Shown piece after piece: positions 29,259 through 37,715 of a stretch of DNA of 64,000 nucleotides. The translations under genes and the position numbers were made by a program. Source of the DNA: Spirochaetota bacterium (GTDB lineage: Bacteria > Spirochaetota > Spirochaetia > Treponematales > UBA12059). The notes beneath the pieces were generated by a model. That model did no database searches. It was given only the letters and a program-made list of their open reading frames with translations, and was not told the DNA's origin. The DNA is taken from assembly GCA_022703505.1 (NCBI GenBank), contig JAKLDN010000001.1:469389-533388 (forward strand), read 5' to 3'. Each line of letters begins with the position of its first letter. Position 1 is the first letter of the stretch.

Positions 29259-29782
29259 GACCCGCCTCCCTCGGCGCCGGAATCCCCGGCCTCGGTCAGA
29301 CGGGCGCGCACGTACTCCGTGAGGCCCCCGGCTTCCATGATGCGCCGCATGAAGGGCGGGAAGGGGGCGGACCGCCAGGAGGAGTTCTTCGTCCCGTCCG
29401 AGATGGTTCCCGATCCGAAATCCAGGGACAGCCGGTCCCCGGCCTCGATCCCGGCGGCGGCCTCGGGGGATTCCAGGATGGGAAGCCCGATGTTCACCGC
29501 GTTGCGGTAGAAGATCCGGGCGAAGGAAGCCGCGATCACGCAGGAGACTCCTGCGGCCTTGATAGCCACCGGGGCATGCTCCCGGCTGGAGCCGCAACCG
29601 AAGTTCCGGCCCCCCACGAGGACGTCCCCGGGCCGCACCGCCCCCGCGAAGGAGGGGTCCAGGTCCTCCATGCAGTGGGCGGCCAACTCTGCGGGATCGC
29701 TGGTATTGAGGTATCGGGCGGGGATGATGGCGTCGGTGTCCACGTTGTCCCCGTACTTGAAGGCACGTCCCGCGGCGGTCAT
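29255..29782 (-). CDS. leuD: 3-isopropylmalate dehydratase, small subunit
   Basis: A 175-residue subunit: [65 protein letters not shown] are diagnostic. Works with LeuC to isomerise 2- to 3-isopropylmalate (and probably citramalate to methylmalate). ATGA overlaps with leuC and leuB. Confidence 0.96.
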
Positions 29783-31152
29783 CGTGCGCCTCCCGCCGGG
29801 ACGGCATCCCGGGACCTGCCGCGGCTCGCGGCCCGGCCGCCGCCCCACCCGGGCTCCGGCGTCGAGAGGAGCCGCTCCCGGTCCGGGGCTTCCAGGACCT
29901 CCGAGGGGTCGCGGATCCGGCCCGTCACCGCGGCGGCCGCGGCCACGGCGGGACCCGCCAGGTAGATCTCCGACTCGGGATGGCCCATGCGGCCCACGAA
30001 GTTGCGGTTCGTCGTGGCCACGGCCCGCTCCCCCGCGGCCAGGATGCCCATGTGGCCCCCCAGGCAGGGCCCGCAGGTCGGGGTGGACAGTACGGCCCCG
30101 GCCTCCACGAAGTCCTCCGCCAGGCCTTCCCGGATCGCCTGGAGGTAGATCCTCTGGGTGGCCGGGATGACGATGCACCGGACGGTCCGGGCCACCCTCC
30201 GGCCCCGGAGGATGGCCGCCGCGATCCTGAGGTCCTCGATCCGGCCGTTCGTGCAGGATCCGATCACCACCTGGTCCACCGGGACGTCCCCCGCCTCCGA
30301 CGCCGGCCGGACGTTGGACGGCAGATGGGGGAAGGCGACCACCGGGACGAGCCGGGACAGGTCGATCCGGACCTCCCGGGCGTAGACGGCGTCCGGATCC
30401 GCCCGGTACTCCCGGTACGGCCGCTCCGAAACGGAGGCCGCCCAGGCGCGGGTGGCCTCGTCCACCGGGAAGATCCCGTTCTTGGCCCCCGCCTCGATGG
30501 CCATGTTGGACACCGTCAGGCGCTCTTCCATCGTGAGGGCAGCCACCCCGGCCCCCTGGAATTCCAGCGATTGATAGAGGGCGCCGTCCACCCCGATCAT
30601 CCCGATCAGGGTCAGGATGAGGTCCTTGCCCCCGGCCCACCCCGAAGGCTTCCCGGTCAGGACGACCCGTATCGCCTCGGGGACCTTGAACCAGAGCCGC
30701 CCCAGAGCCATGCCCGCGGCCATGTCCGTGGACCCCACCCCCGTGGAGAAGGCGCCTGCGGCCCCGTAGGTGCAGGTATGGGAGTCCGCCCCGATCACCA
30801 GGTCTCCCGGGAGCACGAGCCCCCGTTCGGGCAGGAGGGCGTGCTCGATCCCCATCTCGCCCACCTCGAAGTAGTGGGTGACCTCCTGTTCCCGGGCGAA
30901 ATCCCGCATGCACTTGCACTGCTCGGCGGCCTTGATGTCCTTGTTCGGCGCGAAGTGGTCCGGCACCAGGACCACCCGATCCCGGTCGAAGACCGTACGG
31001 GCGCCCATCTTCCGGAACTCCCGGATCGCCGGGGGCGCTGTGATGTCGTTCCCCAGGACCAGGTCGAGCCCCGCCTCGAGAAGCTGCCCCGGCTCCACGG
31101 ACTCAAGCCCCGCATGCGCGGCCAAGATCTTCTGCGTCATCGTCATCGGCAT
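29779..31152 (-). CDS. leuC: 3-isopropylmalate dehydratase, large subunit
   Basis: A 457-residue aconitase-type [4Fe-4S] subunit. Cluster Cys residues in [14 protein letters not shown] and [36 protein letters not shown] is the substrate region. The C-terminal 30 residues (after [12 protein letters not shown]) are a low-complexity extension beyond the family core. The ATG at 31152 has GGAG upstream and lies inside the end of cimA: the genes share 50 bases in different frames. Confidence 0.95.
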
Positions 31153-32755
31153 GTTCGTCTCCAGTCTCCCGTCGGGTCTCGGATTGCGTGTCCTTGCTAA
31201 GCTTGTACTCGTAGGAATCCACCAGGGCGATCCAGCTGGCCTCCAGGATGTCCGCGGACACCCCGACGGTGGTCCAGACGTCCCGGGAATCGGAGCTGTC
31301 GATCAGCACCCGCACCACCGAGGCCGTCGCGCCCGTGCCGGGCAGGACCCGGACCTTGTAGTCCGCGAGGCGCATCCCGGCCAGGGAGGGATAGAACCCG
31401 ACCAGGGCCTTCCGCAGGGCGAGGTCCAGGGCGTGGACAGGTCCGCACCCCTCGGCGGCGGAGATCTCCCGCCGTCCCTCCACCTCCAGCTGTACCATGG
31501 CGTGGGCGCATGCCGAGGGATCCTCCGCGGGGTGCTCCCCGGTGGTCCGGTAGCGGCGAAGCTTGAAGCTGGGAACATAGGATCCGGCGGCCTTGCGCAG
31601 GAGGATTTCCAGGCTGGCCTCGGCCCCCTCGTACTGATACCCCAACCCCTCCATCTTCTTGAGCGCTTCCGCGGCCCGGACCACCTCGGGCGAATCCTTG
31701 GCGGCGTCCGGCAGGATCCTCCGGAACCGGTCCATCAACACGGACCGGCCTCCCACCTCGGAAGCCAGGAACCGTCGCTCGTTGCCCACGGCCCCCGGGG
31801 GAACGTGCTCGAAGGAGGCCGGATCCTTCCGGACCGCGTCCACGTGCATCCCCGCCTTGTGGGCGAAGGCCCGGCGGCCGACGTAGGGCATGCCCTCGTC
31901 CGGGGTGAGGTTGGCGATCTCCGTCACCCGACGCACCGCCCCGGCCAAGCCGGCCAGGGCGCCCGGGCCCAGGCAGTCCCGTCCCATCTTGAGCTGGAGG
32001 TCCGCCGCCACGGTGGAGAGGTTGGCGTTCCCGCAGCGCTCCCCGAAGCCCGCCAGGGTGCCCTGGACGTGCACGGCGCCTGCCTCGACGGCGGTCAGGG
32101 AGTTGGCCACTCCGAGGCCCGAATCGTTGTGGGCGTGGATTCCCAGGGGCGCGCCGACGACGGCAGCCCGCCGGGTGAACTCCGCCACCCGGGACGGAAG
32201 GCTTCCCCCGTTGGTGTCGCAGAGCACCATGCATTCCGCCCCGGCGTCCCGGGCGGACCGGAGGCAGGCCAGGGCATAGTCCGGGTCCGCCGCGAAGCCG
32301 TCGAAGAAGTGCTCCGCGTCGAAGATCACCCGACGCCCGGCGGAGCGCAGGAAGGCCACGCTGTCGCCGATCATCGCCAGGTTCTCCTCGAGCGAGACCC
32401 CCAGGACGGCGCGGACGTGGAAAGTCCAGGACTTCCCGAAGAGGACGACGATCCCGGTGTCCGCGGCCAGGAGGCTCGCCAACTGGGCGTCCGATTCGGG
32501 ACGGGTGTCCCTGCGCCGGGTGGAGCCGAAGGCGGCCAGGGTCGACCGCGCCAAGCGCAGGCCCCGGGCCTCCCGGAAAAACTCCGCGTCCTTGGGGTTC
32601 GACCCGGGGTTGCCCGCCTCGATGATGTCCACCCCCAAGGCGTCCAGGGCCCGGACTACGGAGATCTTGTCCGTCACCGAGAAGCTCACCCCCTCGCCCT
32701 GGGCCCCGTCCCGGAGGGTGGAATCAAGAAGCGTTACGCGCGGAAGCCTGTCCAT
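31103..32755 (-). CDS. cimA: (R)-citramalate synthase
   Basis: A 550-residue enzyme that joins pyruvate and acetyl-CoA, opening the threonine-independent route to isoleucine. [22 protein letters not shown] and [15 protein letters not shown] mark the CimA branch rather than Leu[41 protein letters not shown] is the catalytic region; a C-terminal allosteric domain starts near 400. Its start lies 32 bases inside leuA and its end 50 bases inside leuC. The last 20 residues, read through the leuC start, are an acidic tail. Confidence 0.92.
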
Positions 32756-34316
32756 CGGCGTCCTCCTCCGCCCCGGCGGAGGAAGGGCCCGGGCCACCCT
32801 CCGCGTCCAGGTCCTCCGCCATGGCGTTGATGGCGTCGATATAGGCCCGGACGCTGGCCTCGATGACGTCCGTGGACACCCCGTGCCCGTTGTAAGCTCT
32901 GTCCCCCAGGCGCACCCGCACGTGGGCCTCACCCTGGGCGTCCTTGCCGCCGGTGACGGAATCCAGGGAGAAATCCTCCAGCACCGGATCCCGGCCCACG
33001 ATCTTGTCGATGGCCTTGAAGGACGCGTCGATGGGTCCGTCCCCGGTGGCCACCCGCTCCTCCTTCCTGCCGTCCCGGGAAGCCAGGCTGACCGCGCTGG
33101 TGGAGGTTATGGAGTTGCCGGAGTTGATGATGAAACGCTCCAGCTTCCAGGCCGCCTTCCGGTCCGGAGCCCAGCCCCGAGCCAGGGCCTCGATGTCCCG
33201 GTCGCTCACGGTCTTCTTCTTGTCCGCCAGGGCCTTGAAGGCCTTGAAGAGCTCCGCGGTCCGGGCCGGACCGAGATGGAAGCCCAGCTCGGCCAATCGA
33301 TCGTCGAAGGCGTGGCGTCCCGAGTGCTTGCCCAGGACCATCTTGTTCCGGGGCAGACCCACGGACTCGGGGGTCATGATCTCGTAGGTGTCCGCGCGGG
33401 CCAGTACCCCGTGCTGGTGGATCCCCGACTCGTGGGCGAAGGCGTTCTCCCCGACCACGGCCTTGTTCGGCTGGACCCGGCAGCCCGTGACCTGGACGAC
33501 CAGGCGGCTGGCGGCGTAGATCCGGGTGGTGTCGATCCGGCACCGGGCGTCCAGGGAGTCGGCCCGGGTCCGAAGGATCATGGCGATCTCCTCCAGGGAT
33601 GCGTTCCCCGCCCTCTCCCCGATCCCGTTGACCGTGCACTCCACCTGATCCGCCCCGGCCTCCACGGCAGCCAGGGAGTTGGCCACCGCCAGGCCCAGGT
33701 CGTCGTGGCAGTGCACCGAGAAGACGGCCTTGCCCATGTCCGGGACCCCGGCCTTGACCCTCCGCACCAGGTCCCCGAACTGACGGGGCAGGGCGTAGCC
33801 CACCGTGTCCGGCAGGTTGACCGTGGAAGCCCCCGCCTCGATGGCGGCCTGGAAGATCCGGCACAGGAAGTCCGGGTCCGAACGGGAGGCGTCCTCGGCG
33901 GAGAACTCCACGTCCGGGCAGAGCTTCCGGGCATAGCGGACCATGGCGACGGCCTGTTCCACCACCTCGTCGGGCTTCATGCGGAGCTTGTACTCCATGT
34001 GCACCGGCGAGGTAGCGATGAAGGTGTGGATCCGGGGGCGCTCCGCGGGCCTCAGGGCCTCCCAGGCGGCGTCGATATCCCCGGGCACCGCCCGGGCAAG
34101 GCCCGCCACGGCGCAGAGGCGCACCTGGCGCGCGATCTCGCGCACCGAGGCCAGGTCCCCGGGGCTTGCGATCGGAAAGCCCGCCTCGATGACGTCCACG
34201 CCGAGCTTCTCGAGCTGCCGGGCCACCTCGAGTTTTTCGCCCAGGTTCATGCTGCAGCCCGGAGCCTGCTCGCCGTCCCGCAGGGTCGTGTCGAAGATCG
34301 CGATTTCGCGTGCCAT
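32724..34316 (-). CDS. leuA: 2-isopropylmalate synthase
   Basis: A 530-residue enzyme, first step of leucine synthesis. DTTLRDGEQAPGCSMN, VHCHDDLGLAVANSLAAVEAGADQVECTVNGIGERAGN and HESGIHQHGVL are present, with the regulatory domain from about 390 (SGNSITSTSAVSL ... AYIDAINAM), which probably senses leucine. The C-terminal 25 residues are an acidic, Ala/Ser-rich extension formed where the frame enters cimA. Confidence 0.96.
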   Translation of the reverse strand: MAREIAIFDTTLRDGEQAPGCSMNLGEKLEVARQLEKLGVDVIEAGFPIASPGDLASVREIARQVRLCAVAGLARAVPGDIDAAWEALRPAERPRIHTFIATSPVHMEYKLRMKPDEVVEQAVAMVRYARKLCPDVEFSAEDASRSDPDFLCRIFQAAIEAGASTVNLPDTVGYALPRQFGDLVRRVKAGVPDMGKAVFSVHCHDDLGLAVANSLAAVEAGADQVECTVNGIGERAGNASLEEIAMILRTRADSLDARCRIDTTRIYAASRLVVQVTGCRVQPNKAVVGENAFAHESGIHQHGVLARADTYEIMTPESVGLPRNKMVLGKHSGRHAFDDRLAELGFHLGPARTAELFKAFKALADKKKTVSDRDIEALARGWAPDRKAAWKLERFIINSGNSITSTSAVSLASRDGRKEERVATGDGPIDASFKAIDKIVGRDPVLEDFSLDSVTGGKDAQGEAHVRVRLGDRAYNGHGVSTDVIEASVRAYIDAINAMAEDLDAEGGPGPSSAGAEEDADGQASARNAS

Positions 34317-34325
34317 GGCTCTCTC

Positions 34326-35907
<1,582 letters not shown>

Positions 35908-36150
35908 GCCTACAGGCTCTCGCAGAGGGACCATACGTCGAGGACCGGCTCCCTGCGGGACTTTCGGGAGACCTCGAATCTCGAAGGTGCGGTCCCGTGC
36001 CTGGGGCAAGCTCCATCACCGTGTTCGCGGGACCGAAGGTGTCCCGCGGGGCAGTTCGTTCGATTCGTTCGGGCATACAATCGCGCGTCCATGACGGCTC
36101 CTCCTAGGGCGCGGCCCGGTCCGGATGGTTCCGGGCGATCCGGGGTGAGT

Positions 36151-36257
36151 GTCACGAAGCTTGTGAAAGGTTTCGGTCCCGCCGAAGGACGGCAAAAAGG
36201 AAGGCCGTCCGGCGCCGCGGACCTTTCACAAGGTTCGTACCACCAGGGACGGCCTAG
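36151..36257 (-). promoter_or_regulatory. Structured leader of ilv-leu operon (possible attenuator)
   Basis: On the minus strand three segments A (GGCCGTCC, 36254-36247), B (GGACGGCC, 36210-36203) and C (GCCGTCC, 36193-36187) allow two exclusive stems, A:B or B:C. An 18-base near-perfect inverted repeat (36154-36171 with 36221-36238, 17 of 18 pairs) encloses B:C. It lies between a hydrophobic leader ORF and ilvN. The T-run is in the B:C loop, not after a stem, so a standard terminator is not evident. Confidence 0.5.
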
Positions 36258-36302
36258 TACGGTCGGGCTCTCTCCGCCCGGCCGTCATCCAGCGAAGGAG
36301 CC

Positions 36303-36467
36303 CTACATGCCCAGGATAAGGAGGAGGACGATAATGGTGAGGATGTAGAGGGAGGATAGGGTGGGATTCTGTGCGGCGAAGGCTGCCCGGACGCGGGCCG
36401 CGGAGGCGAGACGCCCGCGGCGGTCGAGGGCGATTCCCCGGAGGGAGTGCGCCATTTCACCGGCCAT
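36303..36467 (-). CDS. Leader peptide rich in Ile/Leu/Val, or small membrane protein
   Basis: A 54-residue frame upstream of ilvN. It ends with YILTIIVLLLIL-GM-stop, in which 10 of 12 residues are branched-chain, directly before a structured region and the branched-chain operon. This fits an attenuation leader whose stalling senses Ile/Leu/Val. The Arg-rich stretch before it (LDRRGRLASAARVRAAF) would equally suit a single-span membrane protein with positive-inside topology, and 54 residues is long for a leader. An internal ATG at 36455 is possible; the ribosome site is weak. Confidence 0.6.
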   Translation of the reverse strand: MAGEMAHSLRGIALDRRGRLASAARVRAAFAAQNPTLSSLYILTIIVLLLILGM

Positions 36468-36473
36468 GGGCGG

Positions 36474-36503
36474 ACCCTAGCACGCCGAAAAAACGAGTGT
36501 CAA
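36474..36503 (-). promoter_or_regulatory. Candidate promoter of leader and ilv-leu operon
   Basis: TTGACA (36503-36498), 18-base spacer, extended -10 TGC-TAGGGT (36482-36474). The transcript would start almost at the leader ATG. Upstream, palindromes AATTCG-TT-CGAATT (36519-36532) and TGAAATATTTCA (36534-36545) could bind regulators of this operon and of the divergent azlCD. Confidence 0.4.
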
Positions 36504-36682
36504 GCTGCTATGCATAGAATTCGTTCGAATTGTTGAAATATTTCAGTAAAAATGTAGGATTCTATTCGACTTTTGCTCGATTCCCTCTACAATATCCAAG
36601 AAATTAAATCCCGAGAGCCGCCGCGAGTCGGTCCATCCCGGCCCTTGCGGCCGCCCGCCGGACCGGTATAGAGTCCCTTCCC

Positions 36683-37402
36683 ATGGAGAGTACGGATCGA
36701 GGCGGGGCCGCCGGTGCCCCGAGAGCGGCCCTTCGGGCGGCCCTGCCCGCGACCTTCCCGGTCTTCCTGGGCTACACGACCATCGGGGCGGCCTTCGGCC
36801 TGCTCCTGGCCAGCTCGGGACTTCCCCTCTGGGCCGCTCCGGCGATGAGCCTGTTCGTGTACGCCGGGGCCGCGCAGTTCATGGGAGTGGGGATCATCGC
36901 CTCGGGCGCGGGTCTTGCGGAGCTCGCCGCGGCCACCTTCCTGCTCAACCTGCGCCACATGGTCTACGGCCTATCGTTCCTGGAGCTCTACTCCCGGGCG
37001 GGTGCGCGGAAACCCTACCTGGTCTTCACACTGACCGACGAGACCTACGCCCTGCTCTCCACGGTCTCCGTTCCCCCGGGGGTCGACCCGGACCGGTTCC
37101 GGTTCTGGGTGTCCGCCCTGAACCAGTCCTACTGGGTCCTGGGCACCCTGGCCGGGACCCTGGCGGGGGGACTCGCCGCCTTCGACACCCGGGGCCTGGA
37201 GTTCTCCCTGACCGCCCTGTTCACGGTCCTCCTGATCGAGCAGACCCGGAAGGTCCGCAGCCCCCTGCCCTACCTGGCCTCGGGGGCCTGCGCCGCGGCC
37301 GCCTACCTGGCCCTGGGTCCGTCCCGGATGCTCCTTCCGGCCATCGGGGCCGCGGGGGTCCTCCTCTTCGCCCTGAGGAAAAGGCTGGAAGCCCGTGGAT
37401 AG
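36683..37402 (+). CDS. azlC: AzlC-family branched-chain amino acid exporter subunit
   Basis: A 239-residue inner-membrane protein with seven to eight spans. AALPATFPVFLGYTTIGAAFGLLLASSGL, SLFVYAGAAQFMGVG and LLNLRHMVYGLSF are family hallmarks. With AzlD it exports branched-chain amino acids or analogues. Divergent from the ilv-leu operon, which fits a role in controlling the same pool. A TACAAT -10 box is at 36588-36593. Confidence 0.94.
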   Translation: MESTDRGGAAGAPRAALRAALPATFPVFLGYTTIGAAFGLLLASSGLPLWAAPAMSLFVYAGAAQFMGVGIIASGAGLAELAAATFLLNLRHMVYGLSFLELYSRAGARKPYLVFTLTDETYALLSTVSVPPGVDPDRFRFWVSALNQSYWVLGTLAGTLAGGLAAFDTRGLEFSLTALFTVLLIEQTRKVRSPLPYLASGACAAAAYLALGPSRMLLPAIGAAGVLLFALRKRLEARG

Positions 37403-37715
37403 CCTCCGGATCCTGGCCTCCATCGCGGTGATGGTCGCGGCCACGGCGGCCACCCGGGCCTTGCCCTTCCTGGTCTTCCGGGACCGGAAGGTCCCGGGAT
37501 TCGTCCCCTTCCTGGCGGGCTACGGACCCCCGGCGATCCTGACGATCCTGACCCTGTACTGCTTCAAGGACGTCGACTGGACCGCCGCCCCCCACGGAGC
37601 CCCGGAGTTGGCGGCGGCCGCCCTGACCGCGGTCCTGCACCTTTGGAGGAGGAACACCCTCCTGTCCATCGTCGGGGGAACCGCCCTCTACATGGTCCTC
37701 ATCCGGATGGTGTGA
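37395..37715 (+). CDS. azlD: AzlD-family branched-chain amino acid exporter subunit
   Basis: A 106-residue membrane protein with three to four spans (LASIAVMVAATAATRALPFLVF, FVPFLAGYGPPAILTILTLYCF, NTLLSIVGGTALYMVLIRMV), normal size for AzlD. GTG start at 37395, overlapping azlC by 8 bases. Confidence 0.92.
   Translation: MDSLRILASIAVMVAATAATRALPFLVFRDRKVPGFVPFLAGYGPPAILTILTLYCFKDVDWTAAPHGAPELAAAALTAVLHLWRRNTLLSIVGGTALYMVLIRMV

Follow-up and report, generated by a model that had tools for sequence, protein, structure and literature searches.

The ilvN-ilvC-leuA-cimA-leuC operon in the 64,000-nucleotide stretch of Spirochaetota DNA analysed here (the window) is probably controlled by a ribosome-position (leader peptide) attenuator that senses codons. 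Several comparative observations point to this reading: a leader ORF, predicted to be translatable, carries codons for the end products of the pathway near its end; the leader lies ahead of the cognate biosynthetic or tRNA-synthetase gene, with an inverted gene between the two in about 10 Phe/Tyr loci; and alternative helices (A:C and B:D, which covary) lie just 3′ of the control codons. A hairpin with a U-tract before the gene, as in classical attenuators, was not found. The first-pass annotation had recognized the logic of attenuation at this site, and its control codons, alternative pairings and branched-chain amino acid (BCAA) operon are strongly supported by the comparison, whereas assignment to the classical type is not supported, since no terminator was found.

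The Leader and Its Operon

The features of the region, all on the minus strand, are as follows.

36498–36519, minus strand: upstream motif TTCTATGCATAGCAGC plus the −35 hexamer TTGACA (first base 36503), conserved before nearly all BCAA and Phe/Tyr leaders
36474–36479, minus strand: extended −10 hexamer TAGGGT (TGC ahead), with an 18-nt spacer and 6 nt to the ATG; sequence and spacing conserved in relatives
36303–36467, minus strand: leader peptide ORF, 54 aa, with control codons near its end and a stop codon (TAG) that touches arm A
36292–36303, minus strand: arm A, GGGCTCCTTCGC (RNA GGGCUCCUUCGC), pairs with C, from pair counts
36280–36286, minus strand: arm B, GACGGCC, inside the A:C loop, pairs with D, from pair counts
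36265–36277, minus strand: arm C, GCGGAGAGAGCCC, with one bulged A, pairs with A, from pair counts
36248–36254, minus strand: arm D, GGCCGTC (RNA GGCCGUC), pairs with B across C (pseudoknot order)
36154–36246, minus strand: large hairpin region that also holds a further B-like segment with the potential to pair with D, in the window's genus only (G000, G001, G002)
35910–36092, minus strand: second small ORF, 60 aa, with a strong Shine-Dalgarno sequence (SD) AGGAGGAG, read directly
35335–35908, minus strand: ilvN, opening the operon and encoding the small subunit of acetolactate synthase (NCBIfam NF008864, E 1.4e-58)
34326–35324, minus strand: ilvC, gene confirmed
32724–34316, minus strand: leuA, gene confirmed
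31103–32758, minus strand: cimA, citramalate synthase (TIGR00977, E 1.1e-187)
29779–31152, minus strand: leuC, gene confirmed

Direct reading of the leader ORF gives an ATG start and a C-terminal end of YILTIIVLLLILGM before the stop. Its control codons run Tyr-Ile-Leu-Thr-Ile-Ile-Val-Leu-Leu-Leu-Ile-Leu, so that Ile, Leu or Val (I/L/V) make up 10 of the 12 residues in YILTIIVLLLIL, and the ilvN ATG (35908) lies 394 nt downstream, followed by ilvC, leuA, cimA and leuC. Both a 54-residue frame ahead of an ilv-leu operon and the 10 I/L/V residues among its last 12 are thus as first described. Runs of this kind are rare: of 9,924 other positions taken from the collected loci, 7 had at least 10 I/L/V in 14 codons (best frame). 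The 60-aa ORF stops 2 nt ahead of the ilvN ATG, making translational coupling to ilvN possible; at the matching position G002 carries an unrelated 19-codon ORF.

Distribution of the Element

In a DNA search of relatives, conservation beyond the genus covered the end of the ORF and roughly the next 60 nt; it did not take in the stems that lie further on. The core in these relatives lies ahead of ilvN or leuA, each time after an ORF end rich in I/L/V, and a weak match on contig 5 of G016 showed the same RNA core behind a frame ending in SFYFYYHYNS and a stop. A covariance model built from 9 sequences, and then rebuilt from 26, found further members, and chance matches were removed by reading every locus. 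The 34 retained elements rejoin one alignment and come from 26 genomes, all within two Treponematales (Spirochaetota) families. Model searches across the class and phylum, in which 14 candidates were scored per genome, added no further genomes, a weak absence. Matches at G088/L022, L055-L059, L052-L053, L065 and L067-L076 lay in coding DNA or lacked a matching leader and were taken as chance; exact matches outside the spirochaetes (Streptomyces, Methylobacterium, Bosea and others) lay inside long open frames and were judged likewise.

Promoter and Probable Leaderless Start

The window promoter consists of TTGACA, 18 nt ending in TGC, TAGGGT and a further 6 nt before the ATG. The extended −10, the short distance to the ATG and the spacing kept in relatives lend support to the leaderless start that had been raised as a possibility, and the leader of the window is probably leaderless. 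Of the 30 leaders in which a −35 motif was detected, 24 have 35–38 nt from −35 to start codon, and the motif around the −35, ATAGYARCTTGAY, is common to BCAA and Phe/Tyr leaders. In the 3.66 Mb of the window's own genome the pattern AGYARCTTGAYN{14,19}TAG matches exactly twice, at the window leader and at the genome's Phe/Tyr leader (L038). Leaderless starts appear usual and not universal, because the two serS leaders have an upstream sequence that differs from the rest and four further members have a longer 5′ region. A promoter scanner run on the window region did not list the leader promoter, which it missed because the −10 is TAGGGT.

The shared promoter motif suggests either that the module was inherited or copied as promoter, leader and RNA core together, or that its members share a regulator site; ATAGYARCTTGAY is possibly an operator for some regulator. 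Divergent from the leader promoter region, at 36683–37715 on the plus strand, lie azlC and azlD, of a branched-chain amino acid transport family.

Two Crossing Helices in the RNA Core

The conserved RNA core (36248–36303) follows the leader stop codon directly, and its arms, in the order A-B-C-D, pair in crossing order, A with C over 12 bp and B with D over 7 bp. In the alignment of all 34 sequences, paired cells make up 94.1% for A:C, compared with 26.7–69.2% when slid, and 87.4% for B:D, compared with 13.4–56.8%; both helices also exceed shuffled controls. B:D shows 20 two-sided changes against 7.4 in shuffled data, and column pair 20-66 alone holds A-U 12 times, C-G 8 times and G-C 6 times. 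The alignment was guided by a model structure with A:C but without B:D, making B:D the cleaner test of covariation. Judged from this alignment, both helices covary and both exist. Their single-helix energies in the window are similar in size (−25.9 kcal/mol for A:C, −18.4 kcal/mol for B:D with A masked), so that occupancy of A by a ribosome could tip the balance; the two helices may coexist as a pseudoknot or exclude each other.

The wider region (36130–36320) folds more stably than shuffles (z −4.28), and the large hairpin region shows some compensatory changes by eye within the window's genus. The first-pass annotation had proposed alternative stems after the leader. Pairing alternatives do exist, but the stems it named are mostly specific to the genus, and the conserved helices, A:C and B:D, are largely different ones. 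A second D-pairing segment downstream was rejected as a general feature, being clear only in the window's genus and in one isolated case.

Control Codons Track the Downstream Gene

Leaders of the BCAA class (n = 15), found before ilvN, leuA or ilvE, average 11.1 I/L/V codons in 14, and those of the Phe/Tyr class (n = 17) average 6.7 Phe or Tyr codons in 14. The two Ser leaders, MGRVDVAGITKPSSSSSSSR and MGRTSLASAARSSSPSSSSSR, precede serS and carry 7 and 9 Ser codons in 14. The observed class difference was reached in 0 of 20,000 label permutations, with codon counts taken from the best of three frames and relatives that are not independent. Class was taken from downstream genes where these were readable; a few loci were classed by leader or aminotransferase because the downstream gene was unreadable or the contig short, among them the BCAA-type locus on G055 contig 360 (L063), where leader and core are present and the following 1 kb or so shows no readable sense gene, and some Phe/Tyr loci on short contigs. 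The identities of ilvN, ilvC, leuA, cimA, leuC and serS are confirmed, while DAHP synthase and ilvE are supported from N-terminal parts, as is aroF in the window's own genome. In distant members the peptide differs and the amino acid class stays constant. From this comparison, codon content matches the pathway of the downstream gene. Conservation of the peptide in preference to its I/L/V codons had been named in advance as a result that would count against attenuation; when checked, distant relatives had retained the codons and lost the peptide, and attenuation was not refuted.

The aroF gene lies directly behind the Phe/Tyr leader in G006, G014, G018, G021, G055, G064 and G079. Elsewhere the Phe/Tyr leader is followed by an aminotransferase gene in convergent orientation, an arrangement that counts against the proposed attenuation, as at L095 (G000 contig 10, element 110222–110273) and in G001, G005, G007, G016, G019, G020, G022, G041 and G070. 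In the window's own genome, G016 and G041, an aroF operon lies beyond the inverted gene, so that transcription running on past the leader would yield RNA antisense to the aminotransferase before reaching aroF, as in a noncontiguous operon.

Individual loci carry further features. At L035 (G007 C312), an insertion of about 130 nt with inverted repeats TTGTTGAAATA and TTTCAACA separates the leader stop from arm A; the Phe/Tyr leader of the window's own genome (L038) has a similar hairpin, AGGTTGTCGAAATGC...GCATTTCAACAACCT, immediately 5′ of it. A MITE-like element is possible. L063 has a clear intrinsic terminator, GCCGCCGCC...GGCGGCGGC followed by TTTTTTT, about 45 nt past D, which may belong to a convergent gene.

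Proposed Mechanism and Read-Out

We propose that transcription would start at or beside the leader ATG and that ribosomes would translate the 54 codons. With charged Ile, Leu and Val tRNAs scarce, the ribosome would stall on the terminal control codons just ahead of arm A and leave A free, so that A:C could form once C is made and D might add B:D to give a pseudoknot. With charged tRNAs plentiful, a ribosome at the TAG would cover A, leaving B:D available with C in its loop. The A:C fold would favour expression of ilvN-ilvC-leuA-cimA-leuC and its loss would favour shut-off, a direction of switching that we infer. Fitted with other control codons, the same module would serve Phe/Tyr and Ser genes in this bacterial order. 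The leader stop varies in place: immediately ahead of A, within the loop, past C, short of D or, in three cases, beyond D. A ribosome that has reached it would thus not mask A uniformly, which counts against the model.

The window region has 0 U-tract terminators, in keeping with the original remark that no clear T-run terminator is present, and none was seen by eye between D and the controlled gene at the other loci. The Rho gene is present, and in 19 of 23 loci the stretch from D to the gene holds more C than G. Rho-loading sites tend toward C over G, making this uncontrolled count a weak sign of Rho loading. The read-out that we favour over translation control, at roughly an even chance, is premature termination without a U-tract, either Rho-assisted or at B:D.

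Translation control is a distinctly less probable output, and some of our expectation falls on neither of the two. In that scheme the leader would still sense codons, and after full translation A (GCUCCUUCG, anti-SD-like) would pair with the SD of the gene, while under starvation C, as an SD mimic, would lock A and the gene would be translated. Such an output accounts for the absent terminator and for distances from D to the gene as short as 32–55 nt; moreover, an anti-SD-like arm A is common to nearly all members, with duplexes between A and the SD averaging −9.7 kcal/mol, and a stem on the leuA SD is proposed for the actinobacterial LEU element (PMC1262725). When each element's own SD was compared with swapped ones, however, the fractions (0.41 for A, 0.47 for the control codons, 0.19 for C and 0.14 for D) indicated no tuning to the own gene, although a generic anti-SD needs none, and at the loci with an inverted aminotransferase aroF is 1.4 kb away and not plausibly reached. 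The idea that A or the control codons sequester the SD was therefore set aside in the form that expects own-gene specificity, which this comparison did not show.

A more daring variant, which we regard as rather improbable, makes the A:C/B:D pseudoknot an active antiterminator that would form ahead of the stalled ribosome and either protect the RNA against Rho or alter RNA polymerase itself. If so, polymerase could read through stops for long distances without translation, among them the 1.3 kb of antisense sequence from the Phe/Tyr leader to aroF, with the codons as exchangeable sensor and the knot as universal output.

Other Explanations for the Conserved Core

A ligand-binding riboswitch or a protein-binding site, to which the leader peptide would be secondary, is unlikely. 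It would explain why A and C are highly conserved in sequence beyond what pairing needs, and a protein has been suggested for the LEU element (PMC1262725), but three unrelated amino acid classes share one core, specificity tracks the codons, and the core has no Rfam match at gathering score. A T-box, considered from GGTGGTAC at about 36240, was rejected with no Rfam support and only low-scoring chance matches.

The first-pass annotation had allowed that the frame might instead encode a small membrane protein; such a protein would be conserved for a role of its own. The hydrophobic C-terminus and the persistence of the peptide among close relatives fit such a protein, which nevertheless is very unlikely: distant BCAA members change the peptide and retain its I/L/V content, the same RNA core stands behind FYFYY and poly-Ser peptides, and the leader frame has no Pfam match. 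A chance I/L/V run beside unrelated hairpins, conceivable where GC-rich sequence folds easily, is refuted by the agreement of codons with genes and the covariation of the helices across 34 loci.

Comparison With Known Systems

The closest counterpart to the codon-sensing attenuator proposed here is actinobacterial, the LEU element ahead of leuA, which Seliverstov et al. (2005, PMC1262725) describe with Leu codons only and before leuA only. In Streptomyces leuA leaders, which we take to be this element, a Leu-codon ORF is followed by CCGCGGCGAGGG, GGCCGAC, CCCUCCCCGCGG and GUCGGCC, arms that we assigned from sequence and that at L103 give A:C of 12 bp and B:D of 7 bp in crossing order. Like the spirochaete core, the LEU element has an upstream ORF ending in control codons and four arms in crossing A:C/B:D order; its ORF in the Streptomyces loci is probably near-leaderless; and no classical terminator is described for it in PMC1262725. 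The arm sequences differ from those of spirochaetes, sequence homology between the two elements is not apparent, and they may have converged. The base stem of LEU (Leu codons with the SD, in PMC1262725) finds no support in spirochaetes (own-versus-swapped fraction 0.473). Whereas LEU joins Leu codons to leuA, the window has mixed I/L/V codons before ilvN, and spirochaete elements serve ilvN, leuA, ilvE, aroF and serS, with a codon class that switches with the gene, a switch that the LEU case does not offer. Mutations of the Leu codons in the Streptomyces leuA leader departed from the classical attenuation prediction, according to PMC1262725, which is a warning for the spirochaete element too.

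Classical attenuators (E. coli trp, ilvGMEDA, pheA and thr; M. tuberculosis ilvB1NC, PMC13236596) likewise combine codons for the pathway product and alternative helices with an operon 3′ of them. Their arms are shared in a chain (1:2, 2:3, 3:4), in contrast to the interleaved A:C and B:D, and the spirochaete element differs further in having no U-tract terminator and in reusing one conserved core with different codons. Mycobacterial Cys leader ORFs, proposed to be Rho-dependent, resemble it in having control codons near the stop and no intrinsic terminator, and differ in that no conserved RNA structure was found for them (PMC1262725). T-boxes and other riboswitches of BCAA genes likewise place these genes under RNA control, but the present core finds no T-box or other Rfam match at gathering score. 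Among spirochaetes, a Leptospira ilvB motif has 7 representatives (PMC8632094); the freely accessible literature searched held no spirochaete report of the element.

Set against these systems, the spirochaete element would be an amino-acid-swappable form of the known ribosome-position attenuation, its swappability apparently new. It points to modular codon-sensing attenuation in spirochaetes, in which members have a single RNA core and a promoter motif in common, the leader is probably leaderless, and the codons alone would set the amino acid. Such a module could be a ready-made base for amino acid sensors, and it offers a natural test of the ribosome-position reading for pseudoknot attenuators such as the LEU element, unexplained in the 2005 paper.
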